From assembly GCA_902564695.1 (NCBI GenBank), contig CACFCB010000007.1, positions 1 through 47,000 on the forward strand: a stretch of 47,000 nucleotides of DNA, written 5' to 3'. Of the stretch, positions 37,995 to 39,566 are shown piece after piece (positions within the stretch are counted from its first letter, which is position 1; each line of letters starts with the position of its first letter). The notes under the pieces are model-generated. The model had not been told where the DNA came from. It searched no databases and saw nothing but the letters and a program-made list of their open reading frames with translations. Source of the stretch: an uncultured Prochlorococcus sp. GTDB lineage: Bacteria; Cyanobacteriota; Cyanobacteriia; PCC-6307; Cyanobiaceae. The translations under genes were made by a program, and so were the position numbers.

Positions 37995-38255
37995 TTAACT
38001 TTGAGAATTCAATTCCCTTTTAATTGCAGATTTATAATTAAGGCAATCCAAAGGCAAACCTTGATAAATAAGATATCCGATTGGAGCTACTAACCCAACT
38101 GTAAAAATTAGATTAGAGAAGCCCAAACCAATGTTATTTAATAAAAAAGTTATTGCATATATTCCTAAAAGATAAATATGCAAGTTCAGGAATTCTTTAG
38201 TTTTTTGAACAGGCCATCTAAAAATAGAACCCAAGAAAAACAAAAAACCTTTCAT
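37995..38255 (-). CDS. Small membrane protein, function unknown (86 aa)
   Basis: An 86-aa protein with a basic, partly hydrophobic start (MKGFLFFLGSIFRWPVQKTK) followed by two hydrophobic segments (about 27-41 and 47-66) and a polar C-terminus (DCLNYKSAIKRELNSQS). I recognise no family. The ATG at 38255 is preferred over the TTG at 38258, which only adds one residue. It ends 27 bases from nfu on the opposite strand and lies in a stretch of short membrane-protein genes. Codon composition resembles its neighbours. Confidence 0.55.
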   Translation of the reverse strand: MKGFLFFLGSIFRWPVQKTKEFLNLHIYLLGIYAITFLLNNIGLGFSNLIFTVGLVAPIGYLIYQGLPLDCLNYKSAIKRELNSQS

Positions 38256-38345
38256 CAATTTTATTTATAAAAAAAATAATCATACATAAACTTTAATCAT
38301 TTCTACCAAGAAAAATGTATCTAAAGATGATTAGTAACGTATCAA

Positions 38346-38480
38346 TTATCTTTGAGGTTTGGATTTATTTTGAAAATATTCATATTTAAGCTTCCTCATC
38401 CTTCTAGCCCAAATGAATGTAGCAACAACAACCCATAAAAAAAATGCTCCTAATGCAATAATACTAGCTGTATAATTCAT
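38346..38480 (-). CDS. Short single-pass membrane protein (44 aa), unknown
   Basis: A 44-aa ORF beginning MNYTASIIALGAFFLWVVVA, with one membrane helix followed by a basic tail (WARRMRKLKYEYFQNKSKPQR). The frame is open back to 38534, but that would overlap the NicO-like gene, so the ATG at 38480, 14 bases after the NicO-like stop, is preferred. It might be co-transcribed with that transporter. The shape resembles the many tiny membrane subunits of photosynthetic complexes, but no match is recognised. Confidence 0.5.
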   Translation of the reverse strand: MNYTASIIALGAFFLWVVVATFIWARRMRKLKYEYFQNKSKPQR

Positions 38481-38493
38481 TAAAAAAAGACTT

Positions 38494-39162
38494 TTAAAAC
38501 GTAATAATAGAAGTTTTTTGAAGCCAGAATACACCTGTGACTATTGATAGACCTCCTATTGATCGCATTAAAAAAGGGTAAAACATTTTATTAGCTTTAT
38601 TCGTTGCAAAAGATATGCCTAAAACTACGCATCCCATTGCAAAAACTGACCCAAGTAAATATGCAATCAAATAAGCAAATGCTCCAACTACTGGCAATGC
38701 CAATGCAGGAATAATTGCAACCAAATGACTTGCTCCTGCGAACCCATGCAAAACCCCTAATCCCGTTGCAGCATGTGTATGACTTTTATGAAATTTATTT
38801 CCAAGTGAATGAAAATGAAAATGTTTATGAGGCATTTCTTCTCCATGGTTGTGCTGATGCATATGAATGTTTACTCTTAAAGATGTTCTGATAGCTAACA
38901 TTCCCACAATCAAAAGGCTTATGCCTACAAGAAACTCTGCATAAGAAGACATTAAGTCAATATTTATTAAATCCTTAGCCAAAATCCCTAATATTGAAAG
39001 TATTAGAACACCCGCTGAATGTCCAACACCCCATGCTAAACCATCCATTAAAGCTATTCGAGGTTTTTTAATAGCGGAAGGCGCCATTGCAACCATGTGA
39101 TCAGCACCACTAACTACATGTACTGCTCCAGCCGCAAAACCAGTCAATATACTAATCACCAT
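38494..39162 (-). CDS. Nickel transporter of the NicO/UreH type
   Basis: A 222-aa membrane protein related to NiCoT/UreH/RcnA nickel-cobalt carriers. The signature helix is HVVSGADHMVAMAP (His15, Asp21, His22), echoed by GVGHSAGVLIL and by LHGFAGASHLVAIIPALA in the second half. A cytosolic His-rich loop (about residues 100-130) has 11 histidines. About six hydrophobic helices. Marine picocyanobacteria need Ni for Ni-superoxide dismutase and, in many strains, urease, so uptake is the likely role, but export cannot be excluded. ATG at 39162. A PsbN-like protein with its own His-rich tail is the next gene upstream. Confidence 0.8.
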   Translation of the reverse strand: MVISILTGFAAGAVHVVSGADHMVAMAPSAIKKPRIALMDGLAWGVGHSAGVLILSILGILAKDLINIDLMSSYAEFLVGISLLIVGMLAIRTSLRVNIHMHQHNHGEEMPHKHFHFHSLGNKFHKSHTHAATGLGVLHGFAGASHLVAIIPALALPVVGAFAYLIAYLLGSVFAMGCVVLGISFATNKANKMFYPFLMRSIGGLSIVTGVFWLQKTSIITF

Positions 39163-39329
39163 GACAAGAGATTTAATAAAATGATTTTCTTTAAATACGT
39201 ATTGTTCTTATAAAGAAGAGTAATTTTTTTTTTCATAACCAAGTAATATTACATCTCAGAAGTTCATTTATAGAAAAAATATACTTACAGAAATTCTAAA
39301 AATTTATATTAAAAAACAATAAACTGTTT

Positions 39330-39566
39330 TTATGAGATTTGATCTTTTTGAAGTTTTCCAGACATCTCATAAGCATCTGAATTTCCACCATGTCCATGCG
39401 CAATACCTAACTCATGCATTTTGGCATGTTCGTCGATTGTATCTCTAAGCTCTTTTGAACCAGAGCCAAATGTTGAATAGACTCCATATGCAACGGATCC
39501 AGCAAGTAAAACTACTATTCCTCCAATTAAAATCAATAAAGTTGGGTCAGTAGTTGAGGTTTCCAT
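39330..39566 (-). CDS. PsbN-like small membrane protein with His-rich C-terminal extension
   Basis: A 78-aa protein starting METSTTDPTLLILIGG. One hydrophobic helix (about 9-27) is followed by YSTFGSGSKELRDTIDEH, closely resembling the PsbN pattern (YxxFGPPSKxLxDPFExH). True PsbN is about 45 aa and ends there. This protein continues with AKMHELGIAHGHGGNSDAYEM, adding several histidines. ATG at 39566. It stands 167 bases upstream of the nickel transporter on the same strand, and psbH, the usual neighbour of psbN, is absent. It may be a paralogue with a metal-linked task; this is inference from motif and position. Confidence 0.65.
   Translation of the reverse strand: METSTTDPTLLILIGGIVVLLAGSVAYGVYSTFGSGSKELRDTIDEHAKMHELGIAHGHGGNSDAYEMSGKLQKDQIS

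Follow-up and report, generated by a model that had tools for sequence, protein, structure and literature searches.

The PsbN-H gene and its protein

This locus raises the question of what a small PsbN-like protein does when its gene lies away from psbH and beside a histidine-rich carrier. The initial annotation proposed that the two proteins may handle nickel together; a PsbN-type role would instead lie at photosystem II. In reviews, PsbN is placed at photosystem II reaction-centre formation, being present in the RCII complexes of Synechocystis and required for reaction-centre assembly in tobacco.

The gene occupies 39330..39566 on the minus strand of the window, i.e. the whole stretch of 47,000 nucleotides of Prochlorococcus DNA that was analysed. 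The open reading frame list, Pfam, NCBIfam and dN/dS identify its product as a 78-aa PsbN paralogue with a four-histidine tail, here called PsbN-H. The PsbN-type helix and turn and the histidine-containing extension described by the initial annotation were thus confirmed: an N-terminal membrane helix is followed by the PsbN turn FGxGSKxLRD and then by a short tail. Residues 8 to 47 match the Pfam PsbN family (PF02468) with 28.3 bits, above the gathering cut-off of 25, but the score with the NCBIfam PsbN equivalog model is 30.8 bits, below its cut-off of 70. The predicted transmembrane helix covers residues 8-33 (39468..39545, minus strand) and was modelled by AlphaFold2 with a pLDDT of 92-95 for residues 11-30. 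The tail was modelled as a helix (residues 36-58) with low confidence, so a metal site there is only putative, and a structure search found no solved structure matching PsbN-H.

The end of canonical PsbN, DPWDEHDD, is replaced in PsbN-H by IDEHAKMHELGIAHGH. The tail motif HAKMHELGIAHGH, at residues 47-59 (39390..39428, minus strand), was defined from a 14-row alignment and codon counts, and holds all four histidines (positions 47, 51, 57 and 59). Note that "His-rich" suits the loop of the neighbouring carrier, SodT, better than this tail, whose histidines follow the fixed pattern H-x3-H-x5-H-x-H. Further along, residues 65-71 (39354..39374, minus strand) form an AYEMSGK extension, common to the genus of the window genome (hereafter g1) and the long-type phage proteins. 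Other genera named below are g27, which is the sister genus, g51, g76 and g25.

The gene is strongly conserved. The mean dN/dS was 0.03 over 22 genus relatives (one of 23 was left out), and codons 42-61 showed 176 synonymous differences versus 1 non-synonymous difference in 23 comparisons. These values, together with the retention of the motif in other genera and in phages, place the 78-aa protein beyond chance. The hallmark of the family is the tail IDEHAxMHELGIAHxH; in the 14-row alignment, made of hosts and contigs, D42, I44, E46, H47, A48, H51, G54, I55, A56, H57 and H59 were invariant. In a tree of 92 rows and 48 columns, from which the tail had been removed, the long family lay outside the canonical PsbN clade and was split from canonical PsbN and the short phage forms with a branch support of 100/94. 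On sequence grounds, PsbN-H is a PsbN paralogue family in its own right, shared by marine picocyanobacteria and their phages.

Using the whole protein as the query, PsbN-H was found in 49 of the 300 genomes of the family: 21 from g1, two from g27, one from g51 and 25 from other genera. Within the class, 12 of 388 sampled genomes matched the tail profile, and all 12 belong to the window's own family, Cyanobiaceae; the plasmid search gave no match to PsbN-H. Some variants were seen. One genus locus (L055) reads HELGVAH in the tail; the usual N-terminal start is out of frame in two of the 21 g1 genomes (G032/L127 and G201/L128), with the helix and the tail intact; and copies at four loci (L154, L160, L166 and L167) have lost the motif, some of them with in-frame stops. 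The out-of-frame starts, and the loss of histidines in some extra copies, count against a PsbN-type role that depends on the tail and leader region being fixed. Five MAG contigs filed under Euryarchaeota or Gammaproteobacteria (L057, L058, L060, L061 and L062) also encode long PsbN-type proteins, two of them with the phage leader described below, and they look like misbinned phage DNA.

In the window, the neighbours of the gene are murE, an aminotransferase, SodT, NifU and mqo. As the initial annotation had noted, psbH is not adjacent; indeed, the window genome, which is 72% complete and whose closest named relatives are Prochlorococcus single cells, has no psbH match anywhere, and in g1 genomes psbH is located elsewhere, away from PsbN-H. 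Rfam at gathering scores, with psbNH included, found nothing at the PsbN-H and SodT genes.

Canonical psbN in host genomes and in phages

The initial annotation called for a genome-wide check for a second, canonical psbN, and named its absence as evidence against the nickel reading. No such gene was found: apart from PsbN-H, nothing passes the PsbN cut-off in the window genome or in the complete g1 genomes, and this suggests a stand-in for PsbN. In support of this, the gap between psbH and psbI held no canonical psbN in seven of seven complete g1 genomes and in the one g27 genome, while the same test was positive in all three controls. No psbN remnant above chance was present in the gap of those g1 genomes. 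With psbN absent from this place, the searches leave PsbN-H as the sole PsbN-type protein of the two genera.

Of 37 g1 genomes, 28 have a single PF02468 match each, with a top score of 35.2 bits, and nine have none; of the matched loci, the six that were read (L027-L032) all encode the long protein. A hidden second psbN in g1 was rejected, since PF02468 at E values up to 1 in complete genomes returned just the long gene and chance-level matches. A real loss of PsbN-H in some g1 genomes was also rejected: in the seven of the nine negative genomes that were tested, an assembly gap is the likely cause, six of them being also without the flanking aminotransferase and the contig of the seventh ending 7 nt after it.

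In other genera the PsbN match usually reaches E 1e-12 or better, incomplete genomes excepted. Outside g1, g27 and g51, canonical psbN accompanies PsbN-H in 23 of the 25 PsbN-H genomes, the other two having a completeness of 65% and 79%. In g25 and g76, too, the gap is empty, and a canonical-type psbN ending in DPWEADDD sits elsewhere. In the g76-type genera, which keep psbN elsewhere, the genomes listed had no PsbN-H match. The ending DPWEADDD or a similar one, with the canonical EH lost, was read at L313, L314 and L315 (G111, G185 and G060) and at L281-L293, the departure from the gap being checked in two genera. The history of these rearrangements is drawn from a few genera, without a species tree.

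The long protein is also a phage protein. With the long form as the tblastn query 17 phage records were found, and with a phage query 39 records at 39 places; by our own count these 39 come down to 25 different phages. Each of the 25 has a single PsbN, which is long in 13 and short, i.e. of the canonical type, in 12. Full sequences were inspected for all 12 short proteins and for six of the long ones, and every short one ends like canonical PsbN. Both forms were never seen in one phage among the 25, and none of the 25 carries sodT. The recorded hosts are NATL1A, NATL2A and MIT9515 for the long-form phages, and NATL2A, MED4, MIT9303 and Synechococcus for the short-form ones.

PsbN-H itself has both features of the long-type phage family, the HELGIAH tail and the PsbN helix. 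Long and canonical-type phage proteins have an LPGTW leader at the N-terminus (L190-L193, L274-L280 and L341-L347). In the best 80 viral loci, whose tails are conserved in part because the tail motif was used to pick them, the leader was present in 62 and missing in 18 long ones. AYEMSGK was found in 70 of these 80 loci and in all 27 of the g1 loci listed; the 35 other loci, one of which (L059/G018) is a g1 member, lack it. Its presence in g1 and in most of the long viral loci suggests gene exchange between the genus and its phages. In IMG/VR, at least 586 stretches encode a relative, among 600 matches listed.

The loss of psbN with PsbN-H retained, and the either-or seen in phages, have as their simplest reading that PsbN-H can do a PsbN-type job. 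We judge the chances to be about even that PsbN-H helps to assemble or repair photosystem II as a PsbN-type factor, that its tail probably binds a metal, and that it takes the place of psbN in g1 and g27. PsbN-H would act like PsbN, with which it might be interchangeable, early in the assembly or repair of the photosystem II reaction centre; canonical psbN has left its place between psbH and psbI in both genera, leaving PsbN-H as the only PsbN-type protein. Phages would then carry canonical or His-tailed PsbN behind a similar leader, presumably to keep photosystem II going during infection.

The coexistence with canonical psbN in most other carriers indicates that the two are not plainly equivalent, and that PsbN-H also does, or once did, something of its own. 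Thus, another possibility, which we rate as tentative and on the unlikely side, is that PsbN-H is a retained paralogue with a different membrane job, dealing with a metal, heme, a pigment intermediate or an adjacent one-helix protein, and that a dispensable psbN was lost independently in g1 and g27. According to reviews, cyanobacterial psbN mutants have a mild or absent phenotype and the Synechocystis psbH psbN double mutant is no worse than the psbH mutant, so psbN may go without replacement.

The genes next to PsbN-H in other genera also favour a separate job. Among the 29 loci fetched from these genera, 25 bore the motif and were read, and in 13 of the 25 a one-helix protein of 57-64 or 45 aa lies next to PsbN-H with a gap of -4 to 14 nt (L141, L146, L148, L151, L153, L155, L156 and L158; L142, L144, L147, L149 and L150). 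Of 24 genomes, six had a full match to the profile of the longer partner, in each case next to PsbN-H; g1 had no strong match. The Pfam scan, which covered the proteins of 57-64 aa, found no family over the cut-off, and comparison of the 57-64 aa and 45-aa partners failed to establish one family. This tight pairing with other small proteins could mean a different function. Against it, PsbN-H retains the PsbN helix and turn, and the phages hold the long and canonical forms as alternatives. We propose PsbN-H as a testable stand-in for PsbN. The homology to PsbN, the separate family, the fixed motif, the loss of psbN and the carriage by phages are established; where and when the protein acts, its topology, metal binding and exchangeability with PsbN are inferred.

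SodT and the nickel reading

The second question was whether the neighbour of PsbN-H says anything about its function. The carrier downstream of the 78-aa gene was confirmed as annotated: it is a 222-aa UreH/NicO-like protein (38494..39162, minus strand) with 16 histidines, of which 11 lie in a loop at residues 96-133 (38764..38877, minus strand, by residue count). The family models gave low scores. Pfam found just DsbD_2, with 14.9 bits and a cut-off of 24.9, and no NicO family match, and the NCBIfam Ni/Co efflux model gave 18 of 195 bits. The structure model has seven helices (mean pLDDT 59), to be set against the six-helix pattern with a His loop III-IV.

The carrier has matches in 136 of the 300 genomes of the family, one ortholog each. 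Seven of the unlinked loci, in other genera, were fetched, and in all five with genes listed the carrier lies beside a Ni-SOD protein and a small peptidase-like protein, i.e. sodN-sodX. The adjacent protein with the start HCDGPCGVYDPA is one that we take to be Ni-SOD; in G069 and G098 this gene is also the one picked out by the Sod_Ni model. Ni-SOD is core in Prochlorococcus. In g27, the order is PsbN-H, SodT, sodX, sodN (L139 and L140), whereas in g1 sodN-sodX adjoin trpC at a separate place, on another contig or about 0.9 Mb off (L320 and L324). In g51 (L138; genome 64% complete), SodT has a g1-like setting and no sodN was found. Two small membrane proteins are encoded downstream of SodT in the window, of 87 aa (37995-38258, minus strand) and of 44 aa from the likely start (38346-38534, minus strand), in an order kept in g1 and g51. 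In a review, SodT is described as a UreH-type protein proposed to bring nickel to Ni-SOD, found with sodN and sodX wherever present. From its orthologs and gene context, the carrier of the window is very probably this nickel carrier.

One half of the nickel-handling pair envisaged by the initial annotation holds well, since the orthologs of the carrier lie beside sodN and sodX; the partnership with PsbN-H is not supported, in view of the distribution of PsbN-H and its carriage by phages. Under the nickel reading, PsbN-H would bind metal and serve SodT as a small subunit or chaperone, feeding Ni2+ to Ni-SOD like the one-helix subunits of Co/Ni importers. It is a weak reading and we consider it quite unlikely. 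It draws on adjacency, which was found in all 21 g1 genomes with both genes found and in 24 of 24 when g27 and g51 are included. In g27 the pair lies inside the Ni-SOD cluster, and in g1 SodT stayed by PsbN-H while sodN-sodX lie elsewhere. In addition, 44 of the 49 PsbN-H genomes have SodT (Fisher p 2e-12, uncorrected for relatedness), and a weak match to CbtA, a cobalt transporter subunit, was obtained with E 0.12, below the cut-off.

The survey of co-occurrence bore out the neighbourhood in g1 but confined it to three genera. Of the 49 PsbN-H genomes, 24 have the gene adjoining SodT, 20 have the two far apart, all of these outside g1, g27 and g51, and five have no SodT, four of the five being 98-99% complete; PsbN-H is therefore not always found with the carrier. 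Conversely, 92 of the 136 SodT genomes have no PsbN-H. No SodT match was found in 50,697 phage records, though phages carry PsbN-H. An obligate partnership was rejected by this distribution and by phage carriage without SodT, and the suggestion that a PsbN-type scaffold serves as an accessory subunit of the carrier finds no support in the genomes without SodT and in the 20 of 44 where the two genes are unlinked.

The intergenic region also argues against joint action. The spacing between PsbN-H and sodT is 117-204 nt at 20 genus loci, and alignment of 20 of the 24 stretches revealed a conserved TGTAATATT element upstream of sodT (39245..39253, minus strand), possibly the -10 of a promoter of its own; spacing and element together make a shared transcript doubtful. 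Nickel is one candidate metal because SodT adjoins PsbN-H, but distribution and phage carriage make it unlikely as the main function, and the neighbourhood may well be a lineage-specific arrangement. If the nickel link were true, PsbN-H would be an extra subunit in the metal supply of Ni-SOD.

The tail and comparison with known systems

In the preferred reading, that of a PsbN-type factor of photosystem II, the four fixed histidines would face the cytoplasm and hold a metal ion or a cofactor there. Paired histidines at i and i+4 plus H-x-H, as in the PsbN-H tail, are a common metal-site pattern, and this makes it improbable that the tail is for protein-protein contact alone, with structural histidines and no metal bound, as could be suggested by the conservation of all 16 residues of the tail rather than the histidines alone and by the lack of a match in the structure search.

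A fuller version, which we regard as unlikely, is that PsbN-H needs a metal to help to assemble photosystem II and that its tail holds or passes an ion (e.g. the D1-D2 iron, on the same side), that it replaced psbN in g1 and g27, that phages carry either protein as alternative repair tools, and that part of the phage "psbN" in surveys is PsbN-H. In one viral survey, psbN with psbA/D are the most abundant virus photosynthesis genes in its samples; Pfam-based counts of phage "psbN" may merge two different proteins. A psbN-less branch of Prochlorococcus, a dominant phototroph, with phages that carry either form, offers a comparison for PsbN function and the involvement of metal. A possible phage PsbN has been known since 2010; in the literature searched, mostly outside subscription papers and partly seen in excerpt, we found no report of two kinds of PsbN, of the long/canonical split or of psbN loss in this branch.

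Compared with known systems, PsbN-H shares with PsbN (PF02468; PRK13183) the N-terminal membrane helix, an FGxxSKxL turn, [DE]H near the end and a Pfam score over the cut-off, but differs in its equivalog score, its position away from psbH, its HELGIAH-type tail and its separate clade. CbtB/CbiN-like proteins are small subunits of cobalt/nickel importers; PsbN-H resembles them in having one helix and a His tail by a carrier, but gave no match over any cut-off. The neighbouring carrier resembles SodT, with one ortholog per genome and a His-rich loop, but in g1 it is not next to sodN-sodX, unlike the universal placement stated in the review. Finally, the phage counterpart is cyanophage T4-GC163 (phrog_8051), described by Sullivan et al. 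2010 as a possible PsbN, universal and exclusive to T4-like phages isolated on Prochlorococcus. In contrast to this exclusiveness, PsbN of this type also occurs, in its canonical-type form, in three Synechococcus phages. The phage protein occupies the same slot as PsbN-H and its long-type members share the HELGIAHGH tail and, mostly, AYEMSGK; it differs in the LPGTW leader and in that part of the cluster is of the canonical type.
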